A DNA stretch of 62,138 nt from Scenedesmus sp. ARA3 (Eukaryota; Chlorophyta; Chlorophyceae; Sphaeropleales; Scenedesmaceae): assembly GCA_004335835.1 (NCBI GenBank), contig RWJK01001816.1:1-62138 (forward strand), given 5' to 3'. A program made the translations under genes and the position numbers. Numbering within the stretch: the first letter of the stretch is position 1; each line of letters begins with the position of its first letter. The notes beneath the pieces are model-generated. The model saw only the letters and a program-made list of their open reading frames with translations, searched no databases and had not been told where the DNA came from. This document shows positions 1,077-62,033 of this stretch, piece after piece.

Positions 1077-4000
1077 TCACGCCCTCCAGAACTTGTAAAA
1101 AGGCTGAGGCTCTCCAACCTGCACTGCCCCTCCAGCCACCACAGCTGCTGCCGCCTCTGCTGCTGCAGCCGCTGCTGCTGCCCTTGGCTGCCCTGAAACA
1201 CCCACAGCATTGCTGCTGCTGCTGACTCCAGTGCTGCTGCTAGAAATGGCTTCGCTTTCTGTGGAGGCTGCTGTGATGCTGCTGCAGTAAGGCTGCATGT
1301 GATGCGGCCTGGGGTGCCCGCGCCGGAAGTCACGCAGCAGTATGTTGCCTGCAAGTACAGAAAGTGCAAGAGCAACGGCAACACAAAAGAAACAAGCTAT
1401 TGTGGCGGTTGTGATGGGAATGCAAGTGCGTTAGCAGTTTGCCTGCAGGGCAGACTGCAGTACATGAGCAGGACGTACAAGCACTTGTGTCACGTGGCGG
1501 CATCTGTGAAAGCAGTAAACGATGCGCTCACCAAGGGTATCCACTGTGGCCAGCACAGGCCCTGCTGCTGCCACAGCCACAGCCCCAGGCTCAAGCCTGC
1601 CCCAGCTGCTGCTGACGCCGCTGCCAGCACTTTCTGCATGACTGCCAGCCTCGCTGTCATGGTCAGATGCCCCATCACCGCTTGCATTGGAAGGCTCCGA
1701 TGCATCCTCAGGTCCTGGCTCTGACTCTGCTGTGCCTTCTGATCCTGCTGCTTCAACTTGCTTGGCAGCAGCGGCAGCCTGCTGCTGCTGCTGCTGCTGC
1801 TGCAGCTGCATCAGGTGCTGCTGCAGCGGGTGTACTGCTGGCTCCGCTGCGCCTACATCCAGCACATCGAACCACGGCTGCTGCTGCTGCTGCAAGCCCT
1901 CCTCTGCCTGCTGCTGCTGCTGCTGCTGCTGCTGGTGTATGATGCGTATCGCCTCATCGGCATCAGCCTCACCCAGGGCCTGAATCAGCTCCCATGCGTC
2001 ATTGGCTGCCTCGCTGTCTTGCCAGAAGGCACCGCCTGCCCTGCCCAGCACTTGCAGCTGTATGGCTGACGCCCTGCAGCCAGGCCACAGCAGCCGCGAA
2101 TCATCTGATGAACGCTGGCTCTCAGAAGCTTGGAGACCTAAGGTTGGGTGGTGCTGCAAATCAGGTGCATGGCTTGCAAGGTGTTACCGTGGCGGCAGCT
2201 GTACTGCGAAGCAACCAACTTACCTGCAGCAGCATGTAAAACATGTGAAATAAGCTCCCGCAACAGCATGCCAAGTGCGCTGTGATGCAGGAAACCAAGG
2301 AACCCTCTGTCCAACTCACGTTGATGACAGCCGCTGCAGCCTCTGCCATTCAGGGATGATCCAAACAGTCACACTGGCAGCAGAGTGCAGCGCTACTCTG
2401 CTGGTGGCTGCAACCAGGCGCACCCGACTCAGCTGCAGTGCCGTGACCGGCTCGTTGTCTGGCATGTGGGCGCTGAACAACACTCTGCTGCTGCCGCTGC
2501 TGGTGCTGGTGGGCGCAGGGGTGGCTGCTGCTGCTGCAGCTCTCCTTGCACCAACCACAGCATTGCTTGTGCTGGGTTTGCTGGCTCCTGGGCCATTGTT
2601 GCTGCTGCCGCTGCTGTGCTGCTGTGGCAGCATGCGTGCATCCCACACCCGCACGCCCCTGCGCCCGCCACCTGCCAACATGCTGCCATATGCTGCAGCG
2701 CAGTTCAGGCTACCAGACGGCCACTGCAACCTCAAAACCCCAGCTGCCGCAGACTCTCTAGAACCGCCTTTAATTTGCGTATCAAGAAGCATGATCGCAT
2801 GCGAGCCGACAGCAGCAATGCAGCTGCCAAGATCTAGGCCACTTAGCAGCTGATGACAGGGGCTTGTCATCTTCCATGTTATAACACATGACTGGCTGTT
2901 AACATCCCACAGCTTGATCCTGCAGTCCCGGCTACAGCTGAAAAGCCTGCTGCTGCAGCTGCTGCTGCAGCTGCTGTCGGGCGGCAGCAGCAGATCCGTC
3001 ACGCAGTCGCTATGGCCACGGAGGGTGGCTAGCAAGGGATTGCGCCCCTGCTGCTGCTGCTGTTGTAATGAATTGCTGCTGCTGCTGCTGCTGGCGTCAG
3101 GAGTCAGGGACGCAATGCTCCACAGCTTCACCGTTTTATCTGCACTGGCACTAGCCAAGACAGCAGGTGGACAGCCATCACCACTGCTGCTGCTGCTGCT
3201 GTCACGGCAGCCGCCAGCAGGCAGCACCAGCAGCGCCGTCACACTGCCGGTGTGGCCTCGCAGTGTGCGCACAGGGCGCACCATGCCGCTTGTTGTCCTG
3301 AAGCTGCTGCTGCTGCCGCTGCTGAAAGGCGCCCACAGCTTGACTGTCTTGTCTCGCGAGCCGCTGGCATACCTGCAGCAGCAGCAGCAGCAAGTCGAAG
3401 CGTGTGCACGTAACACACATGTGACACGCCGCTGCTGCATGTCCTTACAGCAATTATACAGGCGCATCTGCAGGAAGCCTGCAGCGTGCGACACTTCCTG
3501 TCTTGCTCACTCTCCTATTCCCTCTATTTCTACACCAATCACGCACTCCTGCTGCATCCAAACCCTAGCTTATGAACCTAGTTTATGAACTTACCCAAAG
3601 CTGCTGCCACCGGCAGCTGGCAGCTCCACCAGGGCATCAACAAACACTGTGTGGGCATGCTGTGAGGCCAATGCATCTGAACTGCATCTGAACTGCATCT
3701 GAAGTGCATCTTGACGGTCTGGTGAACTTCACCCACTCACCCAAAGCTGCTGCCACCAGCAGATGGCAGCTCCAGCAAGGCATCAATGCATGCTGTGTGG
3801 CCATGCTGGGGGTCACTGCATCTGAACTGCATCTAACGTGCATCTTGACGGTCTGGTGAACTTCACCCACTCACCCTAAGCTGCTGCCACCAGCAGATGG
3901 CAGCTCCAGCAAGGCATCAATGAATGCTGTGTGGCCATGCTGGGGGTCACTGCACAGCCTTGTGGCAATATCGCTGCAGCGCAGCAACCGCTGCTGCTGG

Positions 4001-5434: not shown

Positions 5435-7927
5435 ATGGCATCAGAGCTGCAGAGGCTGTCTGACCCCAACTACGCCATATCCCTGGCGGTTGGGCCTCCC
5501 TTCCCAGACCTGAAGCCGCAGCAACCTGGCAGTGGCCTGATACTGAGCAACCAGTGCAGCAGCCAGCCACGCAGGTGAGTTCTTCCTTGCTGACACTTCA
5601 CTACACAAAGGAGATATTGCTTTCAATCATCTAGCACCTTCCATGAAGCTATGCCTAATTGGTGCAGTGGACCTCAGGTAGGCAGGCTGCCGCTGTAAGC
5701 AGTGGTTGGGGTGGGCTGTTGCATGTTGTACTGTTGACAAGCACAGGAATACAACAGCGCATCATGAAGCTGTCGCTTACACCAAGTGAAGCAGCTGCAC
5801 TTTGTGTGCGCAGTTAATGCTGAAAACATATGATAGACGGCACCAGCCACTCAGCAGCAGTGCTGAGATCTATGTACACTGGCACATCCCAGCAGCACCC
5901 CACTGCACTCCCACGCGTCAATTGAGATGTTGCAGCCCAACAAGAACCTGTCAACATGCGTGTGCGCCGCATGTATCTTGCACGCCGCAACACACAGATT
6001 TGTCTTCAAGAAGGCGCACCTATCACGAGATGACTTCCGGATCTTCGACGGCAGCAGCGGCCGCCCAGTGGCAGTGTTGCACCACTTTGGCAAGAACCCC
6101 TACGAGAAGCTGGACCCGCTGTCACTCGGCAACTTCAGCGACGCACACCAGCACATGGTGAGTTGGTAGATGTTGCGCTCTGAACATCACATGGACATGT
6201 AAGCAACGCACACCATCATATGGTAAGCAGATGTTGTAGAACATTGCCAGGCGACTGCAGCAATGTGCATCAGCGCGTGGTGAGGTGCAGCAAGCCTGTC
6301 TCAGCTGCTTCAGCAAGGCCGCCCAGTGGCAGTGCTGCACCACTTTGGCAAGAACCCCTACGAGAAGCTGGACCCACTGTCACTTGGCAACTTCAGCGAC
6401 GCACACCAGCACATGGTGAGTTGCTATGAGAGCGCTTCTGCAAAAGTTTGTTCACCAAGAGTGAGGCATGAGCATCTTCTGCGGGTGCTGCTAAGCAGCC
6501 TTACTGTCATCGGCGCAAGGGTTATGCACTGCAGCGTACAGCACATCACCGTGTCGGGCACCAGCCAATGTGTCGACGTTGTGGTTGATGCGCACTGCTG
6601 ACATACCTGCTGTTGCCGGCCGCTGCTCTGCTGCTGCTGCTGCTGCTGCTGCTCCTGTCTGCTGCAGCTTGGGGAGTGGGAGAGTGTGTGCACAGTGACA
6701 GGGTACAACGGCATGCCCAGGTGAGCTGCTGCTGCTTTTGCGGCTCTGTTTGAAAACCTATGCCAGCCTGACAACCGCCAGCACATCAACTCTGCACTGT
6801 TAGTTGCTGCTAATCTGGCTGCTGCTGACGCTGCTGTTGTGCTTCAGCAGGGACAAACTGCATGTAACAGCTGCTGCTGCTGTTGCTACTGCTGCTGCTG
6901 CTGCCAGCCTGAAGATCCGGCCCAAGGGCATCAGCAGGCACGGCAGGCAGAACGTGTACGATGGCAGCGGCCAGCGGCACCTGTTCAACATAGGCAAGGT
7001 GTGTGACAGCTGTGTCGTGGGTGTAAGAGAGGGTGAGGGAGAGAAAGGCATGACATGTTGATCCAGGCACATGCCTGGGATGTCATGGGCTGCTTCAGTC
7101 AGCTGCTGTACAACACTGATGTGGTGCACTCACGGCAGCCATGTTGCCAATAAGAGAGGATAGTTACATGCGGGTCCTGGCACCATCTTAGATGGCATGA
7201 GCCGCAACAGGGTGAGCACATGGTCTGAGACCAGAAACGAGAGTGAACACAATAGAACATTATGCACACTCTTGCACGCCAGATCTCTCATCTTATATCC
7301 AAAGACGTCTTACTGCGGTGCCCAATGGTGCTGCTGCTGGGTGATTGCAGGACAGCAGCTGCGGACGTAAGCACACAGACATGTGGCAGCCTCACTACTA
7401 TTAACATGGAAGAATAGAGGTGGCTGCTGCTGCAACTGCTGCCATTGATACAGGAGAGCAAGCCGAAGGCAATGGCGCTGCGCTCTAATCGTGCAACCCT
7501 ATGTTGTGCTCCCATAAGAACGTTGCCGCTGCTGCTGCTGCCGCTGCTGTTGAGCTTTGCAGGAGAGCAAGCTGAAGGCGATGGCGCTGCGCTCCAACCT
7601 GGCAGTGAGGGGGCCGGGAGACAACAAGGACGTACTGTACAGGTCTGTTGTTCTCAGTATGTTGGGGGGTTTCTGTGCATCCACGGCACACAAGTACATG
7701 AAAGTGGGGGTGCAGGCGCATGCGGTTGGCAAGCGGCATGCAGCAATGCACGCCTCATTCACACACAGTAGTAGGTGTGTTCGCACACACACCAAGCTTA
7801 CACTGCTTGATGGACATTGCTGCAGGGTGCTGCCTGACCTGATGGGGCGCACGCTGTAGCAGGACCTAGTGCGACAACAACTTGAGTGCTTCTGCTGCAC
7901 TCATTGTTGGCTGCTGCTGCTGCTGCC

Positions 7928-7959
<32 letters not shown>

Positions 7960-8245
7960 AGGGTGCTGCCTGACCTGATGGGGCGCACGCTGCAGATCGT
8001 GACCCCCAATGATGAGCTGGTGTGCTTCGTGCAGAAGAGCACCAAGGCGCTCATCCAGGAGGTGAGACAGCCATTGCTGTTGCCCATGCAGTGTTGTGAC
8101 GGGTTTTTTTGCATGTCCCCAACCCAGCAGGACAGTAGATGAGCTGGTGTGCTTTGTGCAGAAGAGCGCCAAGGCCCTCAAACAGTACGTGGGTTAGCTG
8201 AAGCTTATCCCCATGTGGCAGCTGCTCATCATCATCATCATGCCA

Positions 8246-8291
<46 letters not shown>

Positions 8292-21010: not shown

Positions 21011-21839
21011 CACCATCCTGTGGGCCCCTTCTGAACTGCAGCACCCCCCGGCAAGCTCCAAGCACCAGTTAACTCCAAGCCAGCAGACCCAGCACCGCCT
21101 GGCGACTGCTGCTGCTGCTGCTGCTGCATGTGCTGCTGCTGCAGCATGTCCACAGCCGCCACAGCCGCCGCCTCAGCTGCTGCAGCTGCAGACGCATCTG
21201 GCACCTCTACATCTGGCGCTGCTGCAGACTGCACAGCTAGCCCGAGCTGCTGCTGGTGCTGCTGCTGCTGGTACGCGTGCGTCCAGAGCGCGCCTCCGTT
21301 GTGCAGCTCATCCTGCGACAGCTGCATCAGCTGCTCCAGCCGCGCAACTATCTGCTGGAAGGAGGGCCTGCAGGGAGAAAAAGAGCGCACATAACAACAC
21401 ACATATGAGCAGGGGCTGATTCTATCCTTCTAGTAACGCAAAAGACAGTTGATTGGTCAGTCGCTCAGCAGATGCCGACATTTGATCCAATCACTATCAT
21501 GAACGATGCACAGGACGGTACGACCAGCAAGTACAGGTAGGTGCGCTGCTTGTACTCAAAACTAGCTAAATGCAACTGCGCATCACCTTGCAGCTGCCTC
21601 CTGCGCCCAGCACTGCTCCGTCAGCAGCCGCAGCGGCGCAGGCACGCCGGGCGGCCAGCCGGGCCGCCAGCGCTGCTGCACCACATTCTGCGCGAGCAGC
21701 GCAACTGGCACGCCCTGGAAGGCTCTCCGAGCGGTGAGCAGCTCCCACAGCAGGATGCCGTAGGCGTACACGTCACTGGCTGAGCTGGCGCGGCCGTGCA
21801 GCAGCAGTTCCGGCGCCATGTGCGTCAGCGTGCCCTGTT

Positions 21840-21877
<38 letters not shown>

Positions 21878-23932
21878 ATGAGGGGAGCAGGGCATGTCAA
21901 AAGGCATACACATCACTGGCTGAGCTGGCGCGGCCGTGCAGCAGCAGCTCTGGTGCCATGTGCGTGAGCGTGCCCTGTGGAATGCAGAGCGCGCGAGATG
22001 ACGGCAGATGGACATGTTTAGGGTGTGCAGCTTCAAGCAGAAGACAAAGACAACAGCATGCGGCATCAGCTGGAACGGATGGGCGGCATCTGGCACAAAC
22101 AACGCTGTGATGCTGCTGCCGCGGCTTGTATGACTGGGCACTGCTGTGCAATGTAAGATCTGAATGGTTGGACGCAAGGATGCATTGAAGTGCAAAGATA
22201 AATCATCAATGTGGGCAAGCACAAACACGCGCGAAAGCAATCAAGACAAGAGTGCTAGCACTTTGCAAGAGCAGCAAAAGCAGCGACAGCTGCAGCTCAC
22301 CGCGTGCATGTGAGACACGTGGGTGTCTCCAGGGTCCAGGCTCAAGCTCAGGCCAAAGTCAGCCACCTGCAGGCGCAAAATGACAACACAGAGCAACATA
22401 GGAACATGGTATCAGCTTCAACAGACTGTGCCAGTGAACCCACATTCGACCCTGTAGATGTAGCATCTCACATGTAAAGCTAGCACTGACCAGCGACTGC
22501 TGACAATGGCGTGAGCAACAGCAGCCAACAACCATGCAAGCAGCTAACAATAGTGTGTGTTGTAGGGCAAGCTGGAGCACGCCTGCCCCAGTCAACAATG
22601 CCTGTCTGCAGCACTTGTGCATCCAATTGCACACCAGGGCAGAACACGCTTTGCATCACTTAGGCTCACCTTAGCTATGAGCCTGCCTCCTGCTTTCGAC
22701 TGCGCAGCCGCCAGCAGCGCCGCACACGACGCATGGTCACCCGAGCCGTACCCAGCGCCAAACTCCTGCTGCAGCTGCTGCTGCTGTGCGGCATAGCCAC
22801 CAGGTGACATCAGATCTGCAGCGCTGCTGGCGCCAGTGCTGCTTGCTGCTGTTACTATTGGCGCAGTGCCGCGCGTGAGCAGAACATTGCTGGCTTTGAG
22901 GTCCGCATGAATCAGATGCTCGCTGTGCAGGTGAAGCATCGCGCATGCCACATCATGTGCCAAAGCCAGCACCAGATGCAGCGCAGGCAGGGGAGCAGCG
23001 CTGCTGGCTTGGTCTGACAGCCGGCCCTGGTTTAGGGCTTGGCGCAGAGAACCCTGCGCATACACAGGCAAGCACAGGCAGCAGGCGCACCGTGCAAGTC
23101 AACATGGTTGGGAGTGCTCAAAGCTTCCCATGCTCCAGCAAGCACAACAAGCTCTGCGATGTGATGTGATGCTGTGGACTATTAGATTCAATGAACTTTG
23201 CCCCGCTCACATGTTCATAGAGGCTGTACCAGTGAGCATCTGGCAGTCACATGTCGCAGCAGTACACACATGCCAGCGCCCCCAAACCCAAAACCCAACA
23301 GCACGCACCTCATCGCAGTACTCCATGACCAGCTGCAGCTCCCAGCCGCTGCCACATGCAGCGCCCTGCTGCTGCTGCAGGCCCTGCTGCTGCTGCAGCT
23401 GCTGCAGCTGCTGTTGCTGGCTGGCTGCGAGCGTAGGCAGCGGCTTCAGCGCAAAGGTGAATACCTGTAGGCACCACAACACATCAGCGCAGCGTGACAC
23501 TTGGCTATCACTGATCAGCACACATCATCTTCAACCAAAGCAGGCGAATCTCGCACATCAGGTGCCGTCTGGCAGGCAGCTTCACTCCAGTCCTTGTTGC
23601 TGGCTTTAATGGTCCACGCACCTGCATGATGTTTTGGGTGGCTCATAGTGATGCTGACCACCGCCTCCACGACTGCCATGCCAATTCAACACAAGCAGCG
23701 GCACTACACATCATGGCAGTTTCATTGCTAGCTTGTATTTCTACAAGCGCACCTGCACGATGTTGGGGTGGCTCATCGTGATGCTGACAACTGCCTCCAT
23801 AACTGCCATGCGCTCGCGCGTGAGCAGCGCAGCATCGCCGCAGGGGTCAGCGCCTGGCTCGATGGCCTCAGCCGGCAGCTGCACCACCTTGACAGCCACG
23901 CAGCGGCCGCGCCAGATGGCTCGATACACACT

Positions 23933-23969
<37 letters not shown>

Positions 23970-33551: not shown

Positions 33552-33601
<50 letters not shown>

Positions 33602-33672
33602 CCTGAGTACTGTGCGATTTAAGTTCGCCTTGAAGGTGGCCAGCCCGCTGCCGTCCTGCCGGATCTTGCCCT

Positions 33673-33706
<34 letters not shown>

Positions 33707-35156: not shown

Positions 35157-36111
35157 ATGATTACTGCTCATCAGACACGCAGCCATTGTGCCAACAATCA
35201 GGGCAGTAGCAGGCCTGTGCTGCTTGCTGTTAGGCAGCTCAGGCCACACCACAGGGCGAGGGCAGTGCAGCAGTTGGTCAGGGCAGCAGCAGATGACAGC
35301 ATGGGAGGGGACCCTCTGGACGAGCCTTTCCTGAACAAACTGGACATGAGTGTTGTGTTCTCTCAGCAGAACAGTAAGTTTCTGCCTGCTGGGTAGCTGG
35401 CACACCCCTGCGAAGCTTTAGACACGGCTCTCTGAAGGCAAGAATTGCATGCAATGGCCAGGGCCGACCGTAATCAGAGCATGCGTGGCTTGCACCAGAG
35501 CAGCAGCAACTTACACAGTGAAACAGCGTGAGCACAGCTGCTGATAACAACTAAACGATCTGCTGAGCCTGCTGCTGTTGCTGCCTGGCTGTCAATGCTG
35601 CACCAGGTGACTTGCAGGAGGCTGTGCAGTTCCCTATGGCGGTGCCGCTGCTGCCTTTTCCAGTGGAGGAAGTGTTCCTTCCAGGTGAGACCCTTTTTTT
35701 AAACCAGTCAAATATATATTTATTTCTTCATGCAGCTATCAGATATGTCAGGGGGTGGAGCCATGTTTCTGTGGAGGAAGTGTTCCTGCCTGGTAAGGAG
35801 AGTACTGTGGAGAGCATTGTTGCAGCTTCAGGGTTTGCGGGGGTACTAGGTGACGTCTGTGCAGGTGCATGTACGCACAGGCATGTTTCATCGTGTCATA
35901 TGTGTCAACGCAGCAGGCACTCTGCTAGATGACGATGCTGGTTTCACAGACTTTAGGCAGTCGTTCCACGCCAGCACTAGCAGCAGCCTCCGTAGGCTGG
36001 CGTGCTTGCTGCTGCTGCTGCTGCTGCTCCCTGCGCAGGCTCTGTCAAGACGCTGCACTTGTGCGAAGCCCGCTACCTGGCGCTAGCAGCAGCCTAACTA
36101 CGCCGCCGCGC

Positions 36112-36145
<34 letters not shown>

Positions 36146-36226
36146 CTGCGCAGGCTCCGTCAAGACGCTGCACTTGTGTGAAGCCCGCTACCTGGCGCTA
36201 GCAGCAGCCTAACTACGCTGCCGCGC

Positions 36227-36260
<34 letters not shown>

Positions 36261-43213: not shown

Positions 43214-46151
<2,938 letters not shown>

Positions 46152-46643: not shown

Positions 46644-49173
46644 ATGGCCACCAAACGAAAGGATGCGGGTGCTGCACCAGCGGACAGGGCTGCTCAGAGC
46701 GCGATGAGGAAGCGAATGAAGGAGTTCCTGCTGCCTGGTGTTACGCCTGGATACTGCTTCACACTCGGAACCAATGGTTTTGGTGCTTTAGGCCTTGGGG
46801 AGGACGTAGTGGAGAAATTCAGGGCAGCACATGTAGATGTAGAAGGCAAGCGTCTGCTGGGGGTTGCCTGCGGCGGCATGCACACCGTAGCCCTGGCAGA
46901 GGACGGCAGCATATACACATGGGGTGTGAATGACGAGGGAGCGCTGGGCAGGCCAACGTCAGGCACGGCTTGGGAACCAGAGCCCGACAGCAGCAAGGAG
47001 GACCCGTATGTGCCAGGTGCGCTTTCAGCAAGCTTGTATCCAGTGGTTAATGTTGGAGTGAATCTTGCAAGTATAGAGCCAGCTGAGATGTTGACTACAG
47101 CGGCTACTCAGCAGGCCGTCAGCCGCAGCACGCCAGCAGTTGCTGTACAAAGGTCTGCAGTCGCTATCCTTTGAGCAGGCACACCTGCTCACATGCGCAG
47201 CAGCTGGCAGCAGAAACCATGTGTGTCTGGTTGAGCTCATGCAGCTACAGCAACTGCTATGTGCTTTGTGGCACGGCGGCCCTGGAGGACGCCAGAGCTG
47301 CTTGCAGGACGCTGTGCAGTACTGAGTGGCTGCAGCTGCTGTCTAAACAGTAGTCAGTCGCTGTCATGCTCGTGCTGCTGACACAACAGTAGTCTGGTCA
47401 CAACGAGACATTCAAATCAGCCCACAGGCAGCATATGATGTGCTTGCATACGCTTCTCTCACAGTCAATGCTTCCCTGCTGTCACCTTGGTCCTGCAGGC
47501 AAGGCGCGCCTGCCTGACGGCGTCACCTGCGTGCAAGTTGTGGCTGGCGACGGCTTTACATTTGCGCTGAGCGACGCAGGGGCCATCTACGGCTGGGGCC
47601 AGTTTAAGGATGACCTCAGCAGCTTCTACAGCTTCGGCCCGGGCGTGAAGGTGCAGCGGCTGCCAGCACTGGTGTACCAGCCTGAGGTGTGTTGCTTGGA
47701 TGGATTATAATTTGTGGTGTGGGTAGACGTAATGGGAGCTAGCATGTCGTCAAGGGCAGTAGTTGCTGGGCTGATTGGTGTTAGCAAGAGCCATAGTTTA
47801 AAAGCTCAAGTCTTTTCAGCCGGCAGGCCATCACCACTTGCAGTGGCACTTGCTCCTGCTCAGTTTCACTCCCCATGCTGCTGCTTTGTTGCCTGTTTGC
47901 TTCCCCTGCACTGCTTGCAGGACGTGCGCGACCGCTTGCGCTGGCAGCAGGCGCGCGGCACATGCCTGGCTTCTGCTCTCGTACTCATCTCGTTTTACTC
48001 ATCATGCTGCTGTGTGTCTACTCTTATTACGCATTGCAGGACGTGCGCGGCCGCGTGCGCAAGCTGGCAGCAGGGGCGCGGCACATGCTGGCGCTCACGC
48101 GGCGCGGGGAGGTGCTCACCTGGGGCATTGCAGGCCAGGGGCAGCTGGGCCGCGTGCCGCGCTTCAACAACGAAGAGTACCCAGCAGCAGACATGCTGCT
48201 GCAGCCAACAGCAGTAAAAGGCATCGCAGCAGCAGTTGGCCCCGAGGTGGTAGACATCGGCGCTGGCAGCTATGCCAGCTTTGCAATTGGGCGCAGCGGC
48301 GCTGTTGCGGCGTGGGGCTTGAACAACGGCGGCCAGTTGGGCTTGCCGGTAGCAGCGGATAAGGATGCTGAGCAGTGTGTGTGGGCGCCCGCAGCAGTGC
48401 CGGCGCTGAGTAAGGGCGTGGCAGCGATTGCAGGCGGCGAGCACCACTCGCTGGCGCTGACAAAGCAGCACAAGGTGCTGAGCTTTGGCAGCAGCAACTA
48501 CGGCATGCTGGGGCGCAGGGACATCCCCAAGCCTGTTGATAAGGAGACGATCTGCCTGCCGGACCCTGAGCCAGTGGACGAGAGCGATGGGCTAGCAGAA
48601 GAGAAGGTGTCTGGCATTGCTGCTGGCATGCATGTTTCGGCATGCGTGACGCAGTCCGGGAACGCATTCACTTGGGGCAGCAATGTGAACTACCAGATGG
48701 CTAAGGGCCAGGACGAGGATGATAACGAGCAGCCCACGCGCATGCGGCGCCACAAGGCGTTTGGCAACAGGCGCGTGCTGCAGTTCTGCTTTGGGGGGCA
48801 GCATGCGGCGCTGCTGGCATCAGCAGATGAGGAGGCGGAGGCAGCAGCAGCAGCTGCTGCACCTGCAGCAGCAGTACCCGCAGCAGCAGCGGATGGTGCA
48901 GGCACGTCTGCAGCAGCTGAGGCAGGCGCAGCGGTTGCTGAGAAGCCGGCAGCAGCAGGCAAGAAGCGGAAGGCGGCAGCAACAGAGCAGCCAGCAGCAG
49001 CAGAAGAGCCAGCAGCGGCGGAGGAGCCAGCAGCAGCAGCAGCAGCAGCAGAGGAGCCAGAGGCAGCAGGTGAAGAGGCAGCGCCAAGCAAAGGCAAGAA
49101 GGCACGCAAGGCGCCAGCAGCAGCAGCAGCAGCCAAGGAAAAGGCACCGGCAGCAAAGAAGAGGAAAGCATAA
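46644..49173 (+). CDS. RCC1: RCC1-type beta-propeller protein, likely Ran exchange factor (564 aa, 3 exons)
   Basis: Exons 46644-47016, 47499-47686 and 48040-49173 join in phase. RCC1 repeats follow one another: GYCFTLGTNGFGALGLGED, HTVALAEDGSIYTWGVND, FTFALSDAGAIYGWGQF, HMLALTRRGEVLTWGIAG, YASFAIGRSGAVAAWGLNN, HHSLALTKQHKVLSFGSSN and a last SACVTQSGNAFTWGSN, giving seven blades. No extra domain is present. An N-terminal TKRK and a C-terminal Ala/Glu/Lys tail of about 110 residues with KKRK, KKARK and KKRK clusters suggest a nuclear protein that contacts chromatin. This points to RCC1, the nucleotide exchange factor for Ran, over other RCC1-repeat proteins. The C-terminal tail is CAG-repeat derived poly-Ala. 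One acceptor echo precedes exon 3. Confidence 0.9.
47915..47972 (+). repeat. acceptor echo of RCC1 exon 3
   Basis: The sequence cttgcaggacgtgcgcgacc and the next about 35 nt copy the start of exon 3 at 48034, with indels. It lies about 120 bp upstream. Confidence 0.85.
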
Positions 49174-50480: not shown

Positions 50481-51968
50481 TTAGCTGAACTCCAGCTGCG
50501 CCTTCATGACTGCCAGGGCATCTGTGGGCAGCATGAGGAAGGTGCTGAGGAATGCGTCATCCACCTTGGGCACACGCGCTACGCCAACCAGCCTGCAGCA
50601 GCAGCATTAGCAATGGTGGCAGTGGCAGTGTGTCAAATGACTGTCGAGCTGTAGAATCGCAAGGCTTCTGTACTTTTCAAAGCCATCCTCGACACACACT
50701 TGCAGTCGAGCAGCAGCTCTAGCACTGCACAGTGCGGTATGCACATTCGAGCGCATGCCAGCAGACATTCTGGTGCGGTCTGTGCGCCTGACAACACCTC
50801 AAACCCCACAACTTCAGTATTTTTGCAACATGCTGCAGCCCGCCCCAGCTACTCACTTGACCTGCCCATTGCTCAGCCGCTGCCCGTCTGCCTTGTGTAT
50901 CTGCCCGGCCGAGTGCTCCGTGGTGAGTGTGGTGGCTACTTTGAGTGAGGGTGCTTTGTACAAACTTCCCACTGTGAAGTCAAAGTCTGCTGAGAAGTTC
51001 ATGTCCAGCTGGCCAGTGGTGAGGTCCAGCACACCCTGCAACAGTGAAGACATGAGCCACAGTAGCCGCAGTGAACATGTTGCGTGAAGGTGCTCTGTAC
51101 AGACTTCCTACAGTGAACTTAGAAGTCGGCGTAAAAGTTCATGTCCAGCTGGCCGGTATTGAGGTCCAGCACACCCTGCAACAGTGAATACATGGCACGC
51201 AGTAGCCACAGTGAACATCATGAGTCAGTGTGCTCTGTACAGACTTCCTACTGTGAACTTACAAGTCTGCGGAGAAGTTCACGTCCAGCTGGCCGGTGGT
51301 GAGGTCCAGCACACCCTGCAACAGTGAAGACATGGGCCGCAGTAGCCGCTGTAGCTGCAGTGAGCTTTTCAAGTGAGGGCGCACGGTGCAGACTTTCTAC
51401 TCTAAATTGGAATTCTGCTGAGTTCATGTCCAGCTGGCCGGTGGTGAGGTCCAGCACACCGTGCAGCCAAAGTTCACGTACCATCCAGTGCATGCAGTTC
51501 ACTCAGGAAACACCGGGCGGGTTTTTTTTGGTCCAGCAAACTTCCTTGAAGGAGCGTAAATATGCAGTTACCTTGGTTTTTTTTAAAACCCAGGAGCCAC
51601 ATAACCCCCCCCCCCATTACATTGTGGTGGCACCCATTGCATGTGCCCTGTTGCAACTAAGGCAGCGATGATGACCAATGATATGCACGGCCGCTGCCGC
51701 CGGCTTAGTTGCACAGCCAGCAAAGTAGCAGTAGTAGGTTGCTGTGCAATGGTGCATGTAGTGAGCCTGCCGCAGCTAGCCATTCTGCAACATCGTGCAA
51801 TCCTGTCATAAAGTTTAAACGCTGCTGTCTCTGCTGCTGTTAACATCTGTAACACTTGCTCTGCCCACCTCAAACTTGTTTGGCCTGATTGCTATGTTCA
51901 ATGGCGGCGGGATTGGCACCCCAAACACAGAGGCAGTGCGCCAGTTCAGGTCGGGTATCAGCAGCTCT

Positions 51969-52006
<38 letters not shown>

Positions 52007-52820: not shown

Positions 52821-53231
52821 TGGTCTAGCACATTCATTCAACTGCCTTTGACAGTTGAGTTGTTGATGTTCTGCTGCTGCAGCGCTGCAGTGATGCCGGG
52901 AGAGCATCTGGGTGTGCTGATGTGTGGTGTGGGTGACTAGCACTGCTGGGTGGGATGGTTTGATGCAATACAAAGGCACAAATAAAGCTGTAAAGCGCAA
53001 AGTGTTTGACGGGTTCGCCACCGTGCAACTGCAATTGCCAACATGCCTTCGCCCTACGTGCTGACCGGGGGTAGGGCTCTGTCACTGTCAAACAAGACGG
53101 TTCAAACGACGGGTGGTGCAGCTGCAAGGAAAGATGAAACATTTACGTACCAATGCAATGTCATTCAAATGGATTGCAAACTCATTGCGAGTTGCTAGCT
53201 GACCATGACGCGGTGAACGACGTGTTATTGC
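52821..53231. promoter_or_regulatory. divergent promoter, plastid-type gene / AsmA-like gene
   Basis: These 411 bp separate opposing start codons. Both products have plastid-type N-termini, so shared control is plausible. No defined element was seen. Confidence 0.5.
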
Positions 53232-54456: not shown

Positions 54457-54487
<31 letters not shown>

Positions 54488-55528
54488 CCTGCGCTGTCAC
54501 CCGTACGGCAACGGCTGACTCAGGTCGATGCATCTGCGCAGCTGTCTGCAGAGCTACGGCTGCCGCGACTGTCTGTGTATGTGCCGGATGGGCTGCTGCT
54601 GCTGCCGCAAGAAGTCAGGTGAGCGGCTGGTGTGCATAAGTGTGCTTCGCGCTAGGCTGCAGCTGCTGTACTGTTATGTGTGTGTGCCTGATGGGCTGCT
54701 GCTGCTGCCACAAGAAGGCAGGTGGGCGGCTGGCATGCATAAGTGTGCGTCACGCTGGGCTGCAGCTGCTGCACTGTTATGTGTATGTGCCGGATGGGCT
54801 GCTGCTGCTGCTGCCACAAGAAGTTAGGTGAGCTGGCATGGCGATGTGGGGCTATACTGCAATTGTTAGTGTCTCTGCAGAGCTGCGGTTGCCGCGGCTG
54901 TCTGTGTATGTGCCGGATGGGCTGCTGCTGCTGCCACAAGAGGTCAGGTGCGCGGCTGGCATGGTGCTTTGGGGCTGTACTGCAGCTGCTGTGTTTACAT
55001 CAGCAGTGATGACTGAATGGTGTGCTCACAGATGAGAGCGCTGGTGCTGCATATGGGTAATGGCGACGTGCCAAACAACATGTGCTACTTGTGGTCAATG
55101 CTCTGCGAACACAACTGCGACATTGGCATGGTTGCTGGCTGCTGCTGCTGCTGCTGCTGCTGCTGCAGGGCTGCGCTGGGTGACCACATCCAGGCAGTGA
55201 TGGCAGCAGGCAGGCAGCAAGCCATGTGTTCTGTGCTTTCTGGACACTGAAACTGTGAAATTGTCATCCGGCTGCTGCTGCTGCTGCTGCTGCTGCAGGG
55301 CTGCACTTGGTGACCACATCCATGCAGTGATGGCAGCAGGCAGGCAGAAAGGCGTCCGGTTTGTGCTTTCTGGTCTCTGACTGCTCAGACTTCTGAGTTT
55401 GTTTTTATCCTGCTGCTGCCATGCAGGGCTGCACTGGGTGATCACATCCATGCGGTGATGGCAGCAGGCAGGCAGCAGGTGGAGGAGCTGGCAGAAGAGC
55501 TTGATGAAGACTGCAGCTGGCTGGCAGC

Positions 55529-55577
<49 letters not shown>

Positions 55578-58500
55578 TCTGACGCAGCAGTCGACGGCAG
55601 CAGCTCGGAAGGAGGTCATAGCAGTGGTGACGCGGCAGCTGCAGCAGCAGCAGCAGCGGCTGCATCAGATGCAGCAGGCTGGCGCATACCGCCTGATGGT
55701 GTGAGCAGCAAGCGCTGGAGCATGGCACTGCCTGTGATGCTGCAGGTAGGTGTGCAGCAGTTTACAGTACAGAAACCTTGATCGAATGGCAAACAAGTGC
55801 TCAAAGCAGGTGGAGGCAGAGAATTTGTGTGCTTTCATGTAGTAGAAAGCAAACTGCATTATTTCAATTTGGGTAGATCCACCAGCTGAGAAGGGTTGAG
55901 CGGTGAAGTGGCACCAATAACAATTGGTTTCATCCATATGATGATTGTGCAAAGCATTGTCAAGATCAAAACCAGGTTTGCTTCAATATCCACTGCCATG
56001 CAGGTGTCAGGTGACCGCATGCAGGGCCTGCTTCGGCAGCGGCGGCTTCGCCCCGATCTGCCCTCATTCCATGTGCATCATGTTTGACGCACCAAAACCT
56101 GGCTGTAACATATTTTGCAAGTGCAGGTGTCTGGCGAGCGCGTGCAGGGCCTGCTGCGCGGCTGGCGGCTGGGCTTTGGAACTTGCCATCGATCACATGC
56201 ATCACATCCGAATAACTGAAATTTTGCTGTAATATATCGTTTGAATGCAAGTGTCCGGCGAGCGCGTGCAGCGCCTGCTGCGGGGGTGGCGGCTGGGTTT
56301 TGGAACTTGCCATCGATCACATGCATCACATCCGAATAACTGAAATTTTGCTGTAAAATATCGTTTGCATGCAGGTGTCTGGCGAGCGTGTGCAGGGCCT
56401 GCTGCGCGGGTGGCGGCTAGGCTCGCAGAGCTACCTGCTGCAGCAGCCGGCACACGTCACGTGGCAGTTCAGCCCGGAACTCGCTAGGTGCGTGCAGAAA
56501 TGCATTGCTGCAGGTTCTTTGTCATTTTTTATCTTTATCTTCAAGGACATGTGGCCCTGCAGGAATGCTGCTGTTGGGTGCATGTAGCGTGGCAGTTCAG
56601 CCCAGAGCTGGCCAGGTGCGTGCAGAAATGCATTACTGCAGGCTATGTGACATTAGAGACATGTGTTCCCGCAGGAATGCTGCTGTTGGGTGCTTGTAAC
56701 GCGGCAGTTCAGCCCAGAGCTGGCCAGGTGCGTGCAGAAATGCAGAATCATGCATCATTAGAGACATGTGGCGCCGCAGGAATGATGCTGTTGGGTGCAT
56801 GTAACGCGGCAGTTCAGCCCAGAGCTGGCCAGGTGCGTGCAAAGATACAAAGTCACGCACCATCAAAGACATGTGGCGCCGCAGGAATGCCTGTGTTGGG
56901 TGCATGTAACGCGGCAGTTCAGCCCAGAGCTGGCCAGGTGCGTGCAAAGATGCAGAATCGCGGCAAGGTCTGTATCATCAAAGACATGTGGTCCCGCAGG
57001 ACTGCTGCTATTGAGTGCATGTAGCGTGGCAGTTCAGCCCAGAGCTGGCCAGGTGCGTGCAGAAATGCAAAGTCATGCATCTGCATCATGCACGACATAT
57101 CATCCCGCAGGTGTGCTGTTCTTGATTGCATGTACATGTCAAGCGGCAGTTTGGTTTGATGCTAGGCAGGTGCTGCTGCATGCAAAATTTCTTTCAAGTT
57201 TTGGGTTTGTGACCTCTATGCAGGCTGTCGCTGTCCCAGTTCAACCCCATGTTGGAAGGCGTGGTCCGCACACAAGAAACCGTTTGCTTTACCTGAAGCC
57301 AGTTTGTGACGCAAATGTGTGACCTTCTCTGCAGGCTGTCGCTGTCCCAGTTCAACCCCATGCTGCAAGGCGTGGTCAGCATCATTTATGTTTTCAGATG
57401 CTTCTATCTATCCTTGAACCCAGCCAGTGATCCTGAATTCATGTCAATTTCTGCCGTGCAGGCTGTCGCTGTCCCGGTTCAACCCCATGCTGGAGGGCGT
57501 GGTCAGCGTCAAGGTTTTGAGAAGATGCACTTTGTTTTCCTGTAGGCCAGTCAATGAGACATGTCTGCATCCTGCTTGACCTCCCTGCAGGCTGCCCCCG
57601 TCCCACTTCAACCCCATGCTATAAGGCATGGTCAGCATACAAGAAACCTTTTGCTTATCCTTGAAGGCAGTCTTTGTCGCAAATTTGTGACATTCTCTGC
57701 CGCGCTGCAGGCTGTCGCTGTCTCAGTTCAACCCCATGCTGGAAGGCGTGGTCAGCATCACTTATGTTGTCAGATGCTTCTGTCTTTCCTTGAACCCAGC
57801 CAGTGATCCTGAGTTCATGTCAACTTCTGCCGTGCAGGCTGTCGTTGTCCCGGTTCAACCCCATGCTGGAAGGCGTGGTCAGCACACAAGAAACCTTTTG
57901 CTTTTACCTGAAGCCAGTTTGTGACGCAAATGTGTGACTTTCTCTGCAGGCTGTCGCTGTCCCAGTTCAACCCCATGCTGGAGGGCGTGGTCAGCACACA
58001 AGAAACCTTTTGCTTTTACCTGAAGCCAGTATGTGTTGCAAATGTGTGACGTTCTCTGCAGGCTGTCGCTGTCCCAGTTCAACCCCATGCTGGAAGGCGT
58101 GGTCAGCATCACAGATGCTTCTGTCTTGCCTTGAACCCAGCCAGTGATCCTGATTCCATGTCAATTTCTGCCGCGCTGCAGGCTGTCGCTGTCCCAGTTC
58201 AACCCCATGCTTGAGGGCGTGGTCAGCATCAAGGAGGGAGGCCAGCTGCTGTCAAGCTATGAGCCAGAGGGAGGGCAGCTGCCGGCACTGAAAGGCCAGG
58301 TGAGGTGTGCTTTTTGTGTTGCCTTTTTGTGTTGCCTTGCAAGCGCTGTCGAGGCCAGCTGCTGTCAAGCTATGAGCCAGAGGGAGGGCAGCTTCCGGCA
58401 CTGAAAGGGCAGGTGAGGTGTTGCTTCCTTTCTTTTAATTTTTAGAGAGAGAATAGATGACATGTGGGTCCTGGCACCATCTTAGATGGTTAAGCCACAA

Positions 58501-59026
58501 CAGGTTGAACACATGGTCTGAGACCAGAAAGGAGAGGGAGCACCGTAGAACACATTGCACACCCTTGAACGCCATGTTTTTGTGTTGCCTTGCAAGCGCT
58601 GTCGAGGCCAGCTGTTGTCAAGCTACAAACCAGAGGGAGGGCAGCTGCCAGCACTGAGAGGGCAGGTCAGCTGTTTGTGTTGGTGCTTCTTCATTGTGTA
58701 TTGTGTACTTGATTGGGCGATTGACACCACCACAAAAAGCTACAGCATAACTGAAGCAGTGCATTGTAAGCTGCATCAAACCAGTATCAGCACCAGCGGC
58801 GGCATACTGTTGCATGATAGCTGTGTCCACACTACACCGCTACTGCTGCTGCTGCTCAACCTGCTGCCTGTTTTCAGGTGCATATTGCGCCCATAAACTC
58901 GTGCATGTGCCAGTGCAGCTTGCAAGTTTGCTGCTGAACCTGCTGCTGCTGCTACTTCTGTCAGGTGCATGTGGCGCCCATAAAGCTGCGCATGTGCCAG
59001 TGCAGCTTGCAAGTTTGCTGTTGAAC

Positions 59027-59061
<35 letters not shown>

Positions 59062-59121
59062 TGCATGTGGTGCCCATGAAGCTGCGCATGTGCCATGGCA
59101 GCTTGCAAGTTTGCTGTTGAA

Positions 59122-59157
<36 letters not shown>

Positions 59158-61441
59158 TGTATGTTGCGCCCATGAAGCTGCGGCTTGTGCCAGGGCAGCC
59201 TGCTGCGCCAGGTGCTGATGTTGTGGCTGCTGCTGCTGCTGCCGCTGCTGCTGCTGCTGCCAGGTGCATGTCGCTCCCATGAAGCTGCGCATGTGCCAGG
59301 GCAGCCTGCTGCGCCAGGTGCAGCGGCTACTGGAGGTGTCCAAGGTGCGGTCACCATACTTCAATGCACACCAGCGCAAGTCTTTTGTTGCAGCAAGTGT
59401 TGTGCATTATGCTTGACTGCAGACAGTGGCAGCTGCAGCGGCTGCTGGAGGTGTCCAAGGTGCGTTGTGTGCAGCCAACACACTGCGCATCCAGTTCAAG
59501 GGTGTATCGGTTTCATTTGGCTGTGTGGGAGTGACTGTGGGTGGTGGCACTGGCGACCGCATGCACTGCACCTGTTTGTCAATCTTGCGTCGTCCGATCG
59601 CTTTTATTGTGATCTAGGCTTGATGTAAGCGCACCCTTCCTTTCTTTCAGGGCGGCGGCACTGGCGGCTTCATGCGCCGCTCCTGGCTGTCCAATGAGCC
59701 AGCAGGCGTGGACGTGTGGACGGGGCCGCTGCAAGTGTCGGTGGAGGGACCGGGGCTGTACCGCACGCAGCGCACTGACATGATTATCGGTGGGTGATGA
59801 TATGGCGGCAGCTGGGTCTGTGTCACTACTACAGCCCTGTAGGGCTTACTACTACAGCCTTGTAGGGCTTGTGTCTGTCATGTGCAGCGTGTGATGTTTC
59901 GCCTGGCAGGGTTGGCGTAAGCCAGCAAGACTTTGAAAGGGGGTGGGTAATGCAGTCAGGCCGCATACCAGGGTGGATGTGTGGACGGGGCCGATGCGTG
60001 TCTGTGGAGGGCCCGGGGCTGTACCGCACGCAGCGCACCGACATGATTATCGGTGGGTGTTGTTGCGATGGCTGGGTGGGTTGGATGATTATACAGGAAC
60101 ACGGGGATGGAGCACTGGACAACAATCAAAGACGGATGACAAGGCTGCTAGCGGCAAATTTTTAAGAGTTGCCAACATTGGACATTGGATCAGCTTTGTT
60201 GCGTTGAGCTGCTGACAGCATGCATCTCACAGCTCTATCAGCCGCCTGTACCTTTGCTGGGGCTGCGACGGGTCGGCACAGCCACCAAGAGGAAGCAGGC
60301 GTTTGGAAACACCCCTGCTGCTGCTGCTGCTGCTGCTGTAGGATTTGCATTCTTCGCGCTGTATGTGGTCGTATTGGGTGGAGTTGAACAAACGCTGCTG
60401 CTGCTGCTGCTGCTGCTGCTCCTCCCGCTGCTGTAGGCTCCGGGTCATCAGCTCTGCATGTGGCTGTGTGGGGCCTGGTGGACACCACCACGGACAAAAG
60501 TGAGCATTTTGCGTTTGAGATATGCTGGCTGTTGAATCAAAGTAGCTCACTGGTTGATGTCAATGTCAGTTGACTCAACGCACACCTCAACTGCAGGTGG
60601 AAGTGTCCTTGTGTGTGTGGCTGCAGTGCAAAGCAGCGGGTATGATTAGTTGCTGGTGAGATTTGTGTTTACATGCTGTGGGCTGTGTGGGGCCTGGTGG
60701 ACACCACCACGGACAAGTGAGCGCTTGGCGGTTGTGCATGTCGTTGAACTGCAGTGCAAAGCTGCAAAGTTGCCTGCTGCTGGTTGGGAAGTATTTTGGC
60801 ATTGCTGCCGTGACACTGCAGACGGCTGAGGGTTGCCAGCAACTAGACATGTCTTGCTGGGTGCCACCATTGCATCGGTGCGATGTGTGCGGCACACACA
60901 GCACATGTGGTAGTTTAGTGGTACGTCCGTGGCTTCGTGATTGTTGCACTGAATGGGCCAGATTCTCTGTCAATGCAATGACAGCTTGGTGTCTTACAAG
61001 ATGGACATTGCTGGTACGGTGGCTGTATTTTGTGGCAGAGAGTATGTTGTGGCAGAGAGCATGTTGTCCTGCAAGTCGCTGAGATCGCCCACATATGCAC
61101 GACTCGCTGCTGCTGCTGCTGTTGGCGGTGATGTGCTGTCCCCTGCTCTCTCTGCTGAGCATCCATTGTGCAACGCACGCTCTAACCCCACCCTTGCTTT
61201 CTGTAACACTTTTGCCCATGCAGTTGACATGCGCATCGGCCTAACTGCAGCAACACTTGCTAAGGCCGGCATACGCGGCCTACCTGCAAGCTACGTGCTG
61301 CCTCTAGCAGTGACCGGCCCCCTGGACTCTCCCCAGATAGACTGGCAGATTGCTGTGCGCAAGCTGGCTGTGCTCTCTGCCATGCAGCTTGGAAGAGACG
61401 CAGTGCAGCAGCAGCAGCAGCAGAGCCTAGGCACACCTGGC

Positions 61442-61479
<38 letters not shown>

Positions 61480-62033
61480 TTCTGGACAAACAGCAGTTGG
61501 CAACAGTGCTAATGTTGGATATGGAGGGGGAGGAGTTGCTGGTCTGGTGCCAGGGCTGTTTGGTGCTGCTAACAGAGCCCTGAGCAACGCAGCGAGCTCC
61601 TTTATCGGTCAGGTGAGCGCTGCAGCAGCAGCAGCAGCAGCAGCGGCTGCTGCATTGCCATACTCCTGGGCGGTTTGGTGCTGCTAACAGAGCCCTGAGC
61701 AACGCAGCGAGCTCCTTCATATGCCAGGTGAGCGCTGCCGCAGCAGCAGCGGCTGCTGCATTGCCATAATCCTGGGCTGTTGGGTGCTGCTGATAGAGCC
61801 CTGAGCAACATGTTGTTATAACGTTATGTTGCTGCAGGTGGACCAGCGGCAGCTGCGCGAGCTGTCATTGCTGAGAAGCATGATATCTTTCAGCGGCGGC
61901 TGCCTCTCTGTTTGTTAAAACATGTTGTAACGTTATTATGCTGCAGGTGGACCAGCGGCTGCAGCGCGAGCTGCAGGAGGTGCCGCCTGCTGCGCAGCTG
62001 CCTTGGGAGCGGCCTGGAGGCAGCAAGCACTAG
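53232..62033 (+). CDS. AsmA/TamB-like protein, probably plastid envelope (820 aa, 10 exons)
   Basis: Exons 53232-53817, 54051-54618, 55427-55745, 56375-56487, 58182-58299, 59264-59344, 59651-59789, 60437-60499, 61224-61612 and 61947-62033 join in phase to a TAG stop. The start could also be 53295, which gives a better transit peptide (MKCSSTSMQLCRQARSTVGI). A membrane segment (TLLAVLLLVAAAPYILSS) precedes a domain start typical of AsmA/TamB-like proteins (LPGDIHVQRVQLGWAQPLAV, LLSLERMSTAEPLY). The C-terminal block (ATLAKAGIRGLPASYVLPLA, TGPLDSPQIDW) is also of that style. Such proteins form long grooves that move lipids or help outer-membrane assembly; the plant TIC236 is a larger relative. 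This protein is short for the group and interrupted by Gln, Ala and Ser runs, so the role is inferred only. Its introns hold the densest echo arrays in the window. Confidence 0.8.
54620..54960 (+). repeat. donor echo array of AsmA-like exon 2 (three copies)
   Basis: The exon end coding VYVPDGLLLLPQEVR recurs at about 54676-54722, 54782-54832 and 54878-54950. The third copy is the longest and starts as far back as the codons for AELRLPRLS. GT follows the shared part in each copy. Confidence 0.95.
55140..55480 (+). repeat. acceptor echo array of AsmA-like exon 3 (two copies)
   Basis: (CTG)n, cag, then ggctgcgctgggtgaccaca and on appear at about 55140-55229 and 55271-55350 before the true exon at 55427. 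All three continue in frame through AVMAAGRQ. In the true copy the CTG tract is the shortest. Confidence 0.95.
56000..56440 (+). repeat. acceptor echo array of AsmA-like exon 4 (three copies)
   Basis: Copies of the exon start coding VSGERVQGLLRGWRLG begin at about 56004, 56127 and 56251 before the true one at 56375, at a 120-125 bp period. The third has lost the AG (gcaag for gcagg). The two nearest share the spacer tttggaacttgccatcgatc. Confidence 0.95.
56488..57070 (+). repeat. donor echo array of AsmA-like exon 4 (five copies)
   Basis: The exon end coding WQFSPELAR with the GTGCGTGC donor (56461-56495) recurs at about 56591-56622, 56703-56735, 56808-56840, 56914-56946 and 57028-57060. Four spacers hold a variant of gacatgtggcgccgcaggaa. 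Confidence 0.95.
57215..58240 (+). repeat. acceptor echo array of AsmA-like exon 5 (eight copies)
   Basis: The block ctgcaggctgtcgctgtccc, then agttcaaccccatgctggaa, occurs near 57222, 57334, 57462, 57587, 57710, 57836, 57949 and 58061 before the true exon at 58182. The period is 110-128 bp. Spacers fall into two types (one with cacacaagaaaccttttgct, one with cttgaacccagccagtgatc), which suggests that blocks of more than one unit were duplicated together. Confidence 0.96.
58300..58672 (+). repeat. donor echoes of AsmA-like exon 5 (two copies)
   Basis: The exon end from gaggccagctgctgtcaagc to GGCAGGT recurs at about 58351-58413 and 58605-58667. A dispersed repeat (58444-58574) is inserted between them. 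Confidence 0.95.
58444..58574 (+). repeat. dispersed repeat, copy 2
   Basis: Matches 7153-7282 in an unrelated gene, in the same orientation, at roughly 80-85 percent by eye. It lies within the donor echo array of exon 5. Confidence 0.75.
58870..59345 (+). repeat. acceptor echo array of AsmA-like exon 6 (four copies)
   Basis: (CTG)n, then caggtgcatgt/gcgcccat/aagctgc type starts, occur near 58879, 58965, 59058 and 59157 before the true exon at 59264, at a period of about 90-105 bp. The tract before the acceptor is present in all the later copies. A donor echo of the same exon follows at about 59433-59462. Confidence 0.95.
59535..59565 (+). repeat. possible acceptor echo of AsmA-like exon 7
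   Basis: The sequence ggtggtggcactggcgaccg resembles ggcggcggcactggcggctt at 59651. It is short and diverged, and the AG is lost. Confidence 0.5.
59965..60060 (+). repeat. donor echo of AsmA-like exon 7
   Basis: The second half of exon 7 (coding VDVWTGP, then GPGLYRTQRTDMII) recurs with GGTGGGTG at the end, about 265 bp downstream. A few indels are present in the first part. Confidence 0.93.
60668..60724 (+). repeat. donor echo of AsmA-like exon 8
   Basis: The sequence tgtggggcctggtggacacc, then accacggacaagtgagcg, copies 60468-60506, with two A residues missing before the donor. Confidence 0.93.
61613..61870 (+). repeat. donor echoes of exon 9 and acceptor echo of exon 10, AsmA-like gene
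   Basis: The exon 9 end (ctaacagagccctgagcaac and on to CAGGTGAGC) recurs at about 61680-61735, and in part at 61788-61812. The exon 10 start (gctgcaggtggaccagcggc) recurs at about 61834-61866 before the true exon at 61947. Confidence 0.93.

Follow-up and report, generated by a model that had tools for sequence, protein, structure and literature searches.

Introduction

In plants, repair gives local duplications of about the size considered here, as in patch-mediated or paired-nick tandem duplication, for which we know of no specificity for splice junctions. The nearest described mechanism, in the parts of the paper cited here, is the repair-mediated duplication of Pace et al. 2009 (PMC2671141), where local duplications are ascribed to synthesis-dependent strand annealing, possibly off the homologous chromosome. 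In those parts, exons and splice sites are among the copied sequences, as they are here; of the 824 donors, 4 fell in the partial exon/intron class, and tandem cases had been excluded. The nearest models of intron gain are AGGT tandem duplication and break repair, as given in parts of PMC3443670. The passages cited from these two papers give no account of existing introns that lengthen with precision at the exon edge. Direct repeats are also tied to intron borders in Rogers and Bendich 2025 (PMC11782384), as they are here; in the part cited, those repeats are 4 to 30 bp long, with an average of 11.4 bp, and connect the 5' border of an intron with its 3' border. The words "intron" and "tandem" do not occur in the accessible part of the main text of PMC7590803, nor does "intron" in that of PMC7955037. 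A literature search by title or abstract start, in which subscription journals were thinly covered, returned no description of copies like those reported below.

Here we analyze the window, which is the whole stretch of 62,138 nucleotides under study (bases 1 to 62138 of contig C1406), and compare it with other loci of the same genome. A preliminary description had pointed to decaying copies of exon ends in the adjacent introns, which are called echoes below. The echoes are real, recurrent in the sampled part of the genome, and unusual.

Materials and methods

The assembly comprises 87.3 Mb in 1,567 contigs. The sample consisted of 28 sequences (240 kb, 0.3% of the genome), namely, the window, 13 random loci, and 14 chaperonin gene pieces. 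Fifteen random loci had been drawn, and the N-filled L011 and L014 were left out. Genes were predicted with a hidden-Markov gene finder that was self-trained on the same 28 sequences. It covered 7,098 of the 7,890 bases of PF00118 exon matches, a figure that is not independent, as most of the matches seeded the training. Most gene models are ab initio, and some predicted junctions are off by several bases; the CCT5, RPB7, Rab2, RCC1, clathrin heavy chain, and eIF4A genes are backed by homology.

The boundary-probe test used 60-nt probes from exon edges, and its reference set was the 237 exons that were 100 nt or longer. Among the 123 arrays detected, 27 were not assignable to an exon edge, and the other 96 yielded 98 junction records (50 acceptor and 48 donor). 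Four records had no echo above the probe threshold, leaving 94 echo-bearing junctions; four of these had too little intron for the intron-homology test, which was run on 90 pairs. The uniform-placement model used a 118-bp unit on collapsed sequences.

Results

Echoes in the window

Self-BLAST of the window gave 67 local (<1.5 kb) direct-repeat pairs against 3 distant ones. An automated pass with the self-trained gene finder recorded 40 echoes at 22 of the 23 junction records of the window, and four were added by eye, two in Rab2 and two in a WD40-like gene at an exon missed by the finder. Echoes are thus present as described, but their count of about 44 falls short of the roughly 60 estimated earlier by eye; older echoes drop below the detection threshold used for the counts. 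Of the 40 window spacings, 36 were 96 to 155 bp; the other four, at 219 to 263 bp, look like double steps. Echoes were carried by 8 of the 11 gene-finder models and, after curation (protein kinase and RPB7 genes un-fused, Rab2 rejoined), by 9 of 11 genes: the WD40-like gene, a LURP-one-related-like gene (an assignment below Pfam's cut-off), the protein kinase gene, RPB7, a LON-domain gene, Rab2, RCC1, and two further genes at 50.5 to 53.2 kb and 53.2 to 62 kb. They occurred on both strands and at acceptors and donors alike.

The WD40-like gene holds a donor-type array, found by eye, at 3589..3954 on the minus strand, with three copies, of which the most upstream is the exon's own; the array ends in GGCAGCAGCTTTGG followed across the junction by GTAAGT, at an exon missed by the finder. 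On the plus strand, exon 6058-6157 has a donor echo at 6415 (6059..6426), 258 bp away and 96% identical, which spans the whole exon and is possibly a whole-exon copy. Nearby on the same strand are acceptor 7563 with an echo at 7454 (7423..7597), acceptor 7962 with an echo at 7826 (7818..7995; 34 nt of exon, intron homology undetectable), and donor 8061 with an echo at 8188 (8011..8191). On the minus strand, the protein kinase acceptor 21834 has its echo at 21974 (21762..21978), third codon positions holding 6 of 6 differences, and donor 23753 has an echo at 23622 (23617..23811). RPB7, also on the minus strand, has acceptor 32231 with an echo at 32327 (32203..32509), which the finder called an exon and which is missing from the public Tetradesmus obliquus RPB7 protein P0121. 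A second RPB7 acceptor echo lies 121 bp upstream of predicted junction 33534 (33500..33705), and P0121 places the true junction 15 nt further out.

The LON-domain acceptor 36381, on the plus strand, is preceded by echoes at 36039, 36154, and 36269 (35974..36423), in which the full unit is repeated together with its intron part. It is followed on that strand by donor 36580 with echoes at 36700, 36855, and 36971 (36545..36992) and acceptor 38644 with an echo at 38528 (38518..38681). In Rab2 on the minus strand, exon 44146-44247 has, by eye, a donor echo ending at 44003 (44001..44201) and an acceptor echo starting at 44360 (44211..44379). RCC1 has acceptor 48040 with an echo 119 bp away at 47921 (47915..48092, plus strand), and acceptor 51035 has echoes at 51175, 51315, and 51460 (50941..51465, minus strand). 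The large gene at 53232-62033, two searched pieces of which gave no Pfam match, contains donor 54618 with echoes at 54721, 54827, and 54947 (54545..54992, plus strand). Further along the plus strand are acceptor 55427 with echoes at 55169 and 55299 (55141..55477), acceptor 56375 with echoes at 56127 and 56251 (55998..56423), and an array at donor 56487 (56453..57134), which has a period of about 105 to 128 bp and no echo above the probe threshold. Acceptor 58198 has seven echoes, from 57351 to 58078 (57208..58234), and the donors 58299 (echoes at 58412 and 58665; 58238..58682), 59789 (echo at 60052; 59703..60062), and 60499 (echo at 60718; 60462..60734) follow. At 61550..61973, donor 61612 (echoes at 61727 and 61833) and acceptor 61947 (echo at 61838) share the same intron.

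Other repeats were also present in the window. A 92-bp array of four copies at 37479-37844 lies off all predicted junctions and contains the only N of the window (37587), and an array at 20843-21008, with its 65-bp unit, departs from the usual step. The Rab2 gene region contains a 16-bp minisatellite at 43468-43606 (8.7 copies, 95%). At 7153-7281 and 58446-58574 are two copies of a dispersed, roughly 129-bp element, which are 85% identical to each other and both lie in predicted introns; the part at 58435-58500 had 39 genomic matches at 86 to 93% among the matches listed. Rfam at gathering thresholds and ARAGORN gave no matches on the window.

Controls and occurrence beyond the window

Edge probes matched the adjoining intron in 36 of 182 cases at acceptors and 32 of 182 at donors, 68 of 364 in total (about 19%). 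The same probes matched introns of other genes in 0 of 675 cases and block-shuffled introns in 0 of 364, and exon-middle probes gave 0 of 60. The reported copying of exon boundaries into adjoining introns on both strands was therefore upheld by the adjoining-intron matches against these controls. The statement that nearly every gene is affected applies to 9 of the 11 window genes but to only about 19% of junctions. When the intron at the opposite end of the exon was probed, matches numbered 0 of 85 and 1 of 101 (1 of 186), which agrees with the earlier observation that acceptor copies lie upstream and donor copies downstream, a rule that is partly definitional in that a copy on the other side would be exonic. 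Among the 13 usable random loci, nine contained arrays, with shortest spacings mostly of 79 to 159 bp, and four contained none.

The CCT5 gene lies on another contig of the same genome. Apart from an insert, its 520 residues are identical to the public T. obliquus entry P0001; the entry also has 16 first residues that are missing from our model. On these grounds we take the species to be T. obliquus (Scenedesmaceae). The insert in P0001 is 15 residues long and differs at a single residue from an echo in our assembly. Echoes thus already reach gene models. Public CCT5 models are odd at introns that bear echoes here, both in P0001 and in P0093 of Scenedesmus sp. NREL 46B-D3, which ends early and has one segment replaced. 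In addition, a chaperonin profile search exposed echoes as overlapping matches, as at C1492:3212-3295 (profile positions 45 to 72) beside 3475-3642 (positions 45 to 100).

An assembly artefact was ruled out by the divergence of the copies (68 to 100% identity among junction repeat pairs), by the unrelated spacers, and by the echo-like insert in P0001.

Most arrays lie at predicted exon-intron junctions

Across the 28 sequences, 110 of the 123 arrays overlapped a predicted junction, so that the pattern extends beyond the window; this is an upper figure, as the gene finder often makes exons out of echoes and thereby inflates the count. Six arrays were intron-interior, one was intergenic, one was exonic, and five had a mixed label off junctions. 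Under uniform placement, 34, 43, and 23% of nonexonic units would be expected at junctions, in intron interiors, and in intergenic sequence, respectively (chi-square test, P of about 2e-41). With predicted exons of at least 100 nt only, 83 junction arrays were left (P of about 4e-16 against 34% of 117). At least one "interior" array (3589-3954) is actually a donor echo of an exon that the finder missed. In the homology-checked CCT5 gene, which has 11 introns (7,564 nt), 10 arrays lay over 11 junctions and none was interior (P of about 7e-7 by its own geometry). The bias of the gene finder cannot account for this placement in CCT5. Placement independent of splice junctions, as expected of a simple tandem duplication or minisatellite, was not observed.

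Anatomy of echoes

The 94 junctions held 170 echoes above the threshold, with 1 to 7 each. Spacings below 200 bp had a median of 121 bp (SD, 19; n = 153). Single-echo spacings were 120 ± 15.6 bp (n = 45), and seven more at 204 to 263 bp are read as double steps. A donor array with five echoes at C1492:8163-12481 (merged L034 and L036) had steps of 165 to 191 bp, longer than the usual 120. Spacings showed no helical periodicity (best power, 3.5; null 95%, 5.3). Those divisible by three were under-represented (39/65/49, P = 0.03), and selection against in-frame inclusion is possible. The exon part measured 17 to 195 nt, with medians of 50 at acceptors and 56.5 at donors. Echoes stay in register, with acceptor aligned to acceptor and donor to donor, and the splice dinucleotides were kept in 139 of the 170 (AG in 69 of 85, GT in 70 of 85). 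The acceptors favor CTGCAG^G (^ marks the junction), several of them behind (CTG)n tracts instead of a plain pyrimidine stretch, and the donors favor CAG^GTG(A/C)G.

Over the 30 exon bases beside the junction, the identity between true copy and echo was 0.82 to 0.93. At intron positions 10 to 40 it was 0.29 to 0.54, against 0.24 to 0.29 for unrelated introns, and this intron-side profile is a mixture of pair types. Among the 90 pairs, intron-flank homology was undetectable in 44, present in 30, and intermediate in 16; for the 50 single-echo pairs, the figures were 31, 10, and 9, respectively. The earlier view that the copies include the intron flank holds for the 30 pairs, and in the 44 the flank is not detectably part of the copy. 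In the unrelated-flank class, copies stop at the splice junction and no whole-unit repeat is detectable, while in multi-copy arrays the whole unit is repeated head to tail, intron part included. Examples with unrelated flanks are the clathrin heavy chain gene (45 of 45 exon bases identical), eIF4A (55 of 56 and 43 of 44), and a CCT gene (46 of 47), in all of which the likeness of the flanks was at chance level.

Divergence at codon positions 1, 2, and 3 was 0.045, 0.040, and 0.158 with unrelated flanks and 0.043, 0.043, and 0.142 with homologous flanks. In the homologous-flank pairs the intron mismatch was 0.136; because this equals the third-position divergence of 0.142, faster intron decay is not the reason for the unrelated flanks. 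Splice contexts in the unrelated-flank class were scored for echoes retaining AG or GT (20 of 21 acceptors and 18 of 23 donors). Acceptor scores were 2.88 for echoes, 2.56 for true sites, and -2.17 for random intron AG, and donor scores were 2.20, 2.47, and -1.48 for random intron GT. Since the echo flanks score as splice contexts, the old splice site was real, and so is the intron end that the spacer now places beside the exon. The old splice site and the spacer are linked by a single novel joint within the former exon. The exon part (x) and the spacer (N) sum to about 120 bp; they were anticorrelated in the unrelated-flank class (r = -0.56; 37 pairs with spacing below 200 bp) and hardly so in the homologous-flank class (r = -0.16).

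Constraint and decay

Changes common to all echoes of an array relative to the true exon numbered 4, 1, and 32 at codon positions 1, 2, and 3, which shows constraint on the true exon. Those confined to a single echo numbered 65, 72, and 151, with positions 1 and 2 hit about equally, as expected without constraint, and indels were present in 39 of the 170 echoes. These counts agree with the earlier suggestion that selection continues to act only on the copy attached to the exon body. The divergence between echo and true exon at positions 1 and 2 relative to position 3 had a ratio of 0.28 (95% interval, 0.22 to 0.35), whereas at least 0.5 is expected for a neutral echo compared with an exon under constraint. 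The third-position excess is thus too large, and either there is some constraint on the echoes or the copies had already diverged as alleles do when they were joined. Third-position shares were 0.55 to 0.69 before the classes were split. In young pairs, differences at the three positions were (2, 0, 10) with unrelated flanks and (3, 6, 9) with homologous flanks, which is not a significant difference (P = 0.12).

Discussion

The echoes are exon-end copies in decay, and we tentatively propose that they stem from DNA-break repair copying across the exon-intron junction, followed by end-joining; we regard this origin as quite possible, short of probable. The exon would break at a distance x from its junction. 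The exon 3' end on the exon-body side would invade the homologous exon, probably on the other haplotype, and synthesis of about 120 nt would run through x into the intron of that haplotype (N) before displacement. The displaced strand would meet no matching intron and would be end-joined to the other break end without annealing, giving body-x^N-x^old intron for donors and the mirror image for acceptors. The reading frame and message would stay intact, the intron would gain about 120 bp, and the old splice site would be stranded as an echo. Scars would form where the copied tract moves from matching to nonmatching sequence, hence at junctions, and breaks in introns or intergenic sequence would have no such matching template, which would account for the near lack of arrays in those regions. 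The multi-copy arrays would result from subsequent tandem duplication of the N+x unit.

Break repair is favored because of the junction specificity, the edge precision, the unrelated flanks, and the near-constant sum of x and N. A template with the same exon and a different intron end is required, and a diverged template is favored because the ratio of 0.28 lies below the neutral 0.5. As for synthesis-dependent strand annealing, the exon part has a template, the true exon, and the 29 spacers had no source within the 240 kb. A sister strain is likely diploid with separable haplotypes, according to the accessible part of PMC7955037, and T. obliquus strain assemblies are about twofold apart in size (208 against 109 Mb; PMC5552973). 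No second haplotype was found in our assembly, where 0 of 59 PF00118 matches represented a near-identical second gene copy, so that the putative template on the homologue was not seen, which counts against this origin. Among the matches listed, no allelic contig appeared for two spacers and four longer stretches; three of the longer loci gave only repeats and short pieces among those matches, and the eIF4A stretch gave one 79% piece. Several observations weigh against break repair. Unalignable introns are odd if haplotypes are about 5% apart at silent sites, unless such sites are strongly favored; x and N hardly anticorrelate in homologous-flank pairs; and the silent-site excess is equal in both flank classes, so that it is not specific to the unrelated-flank class and could instead reflect weak constraint on the echoes. 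In addition, we know of no repair tracts as uniform as the step of about 120 bp, which we count against this origin.

The preliminary description had explained the copies by repeated tandem duplication, and ordinary slippage or unequal exchange of a unit of about 120 bp spanning the boundary, with selection retaining the body-joined copy, seems somewhat unlikely to us as the whole explanation. The duplications do span the junction and add intron length, as had been supposed; the full unit including the intron part is repeated in multi-copy arrays and likewise in 30 of the 90 pairs, and the young homologous pairs (3, 6, 9) fit a neutral echo. Such duplication, however, should place 34% of arrays at junctions, 43% in intron interiors, and 23% in intergenic sequence, against the 110, 6, and 1 of 123 observed, and it is already strained by the 44 of 90 pairs whose flanks are not detectably related despite equal silent divergence. 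Nor does textbook tandem duplication explain why the step stays so close to 120 bp or why the copies are so precise at exon edges. The unrelated flanks could be accommodated if the duplications were old, their intron parts diverged past recognition and their exon parts kept alike by gene conversion. This account, which we consider unlikely, is consistent with exon divergence being equal with or without intron homology and with the likeness of the exon parts between echoes (mean identity, 0.87 and 0.90). Long decay should add indels, yet spacings in the unrelated class show no extra variation (SD, 16.4 against 20.6), and many genes would have to have undergone conversion over tracts of about 50 nt with unrelated sequence on either side.

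Selection on the echoes themselves, as decoy splice sites, alternative exons, or splicing enhancers, would explain why splice dinucleotides are largely intact, why contexts score like real sites, and why positions 1 and 2 diverge less than full neutrality predicts, and the deficit of spacings divisible by three points the same way. Nevertheless, the near-equal hits at positions 1 and 2, the indels, and an identity that grades downward from 100% make this explanation distinctly improbable. The x-N-x arrangement also resembles an insert between direct repeats, as would be left by introners or mobile introns whose insertion creates long target-site duplications. With microsatellites masked, all 29 spacers matched only their own place or array in the 240 kb (two had a further short piece of 27 and 39 nt in the same array), and two spacers searched genome-wide gave only self-matches. 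The repeat edge would, moreover, need to coincide with a splice junction every time. An introner family is disfavored by this lack of a dispersed family of similar spacers among the 29 compared with the 240 kb, and we find introner insertion hardly credible.

If break repair did produce the echoes, exon breaks repaired off the other haplotype could feed intron growth as a repair ratchet, an extension that we put forward with less assurance still than the repair origin. Exons would serve as homology anchors, and each repair would run about 120 nt into nonmatching intron that is welded in place, so that foreign intron sequence would form the new exon boundary while the old splice site would remain as an echo. 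The process would feed itself, as greater intron difference between haplotypes would lead to faster divergence. The echoes are a countable and datable record of intron lengthening with exons intact, at about one in five tested junctions, and they would make intron growth and the replacement of intron ends testable by comparison of strains or haplotypes.

In relation to known systems, the simple model of repeated tandem duplication accounts for only part of the phenomenon. In contrast to the duplications in the parts of Pace et al. 2009 cited above, most arrays here lie on junctions, with a near-fixed step and often with exon-edge precision. As in the AGGT tandem genomic duplication model of intron gain, to the extent that PMC3443670 is cited here, a short duplication is tolerated and one copy is spliced out; unlike in that model, existing introns grow, and the donor of one copy is not aligned with the acceptor of the next. 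Direct repeats flank new intron sequence both here and in break-repair intron gain as given in the same passages, but the repeats described here consist of about 30 to 100 exonic nt and have an existing splice junction as one of their edges.
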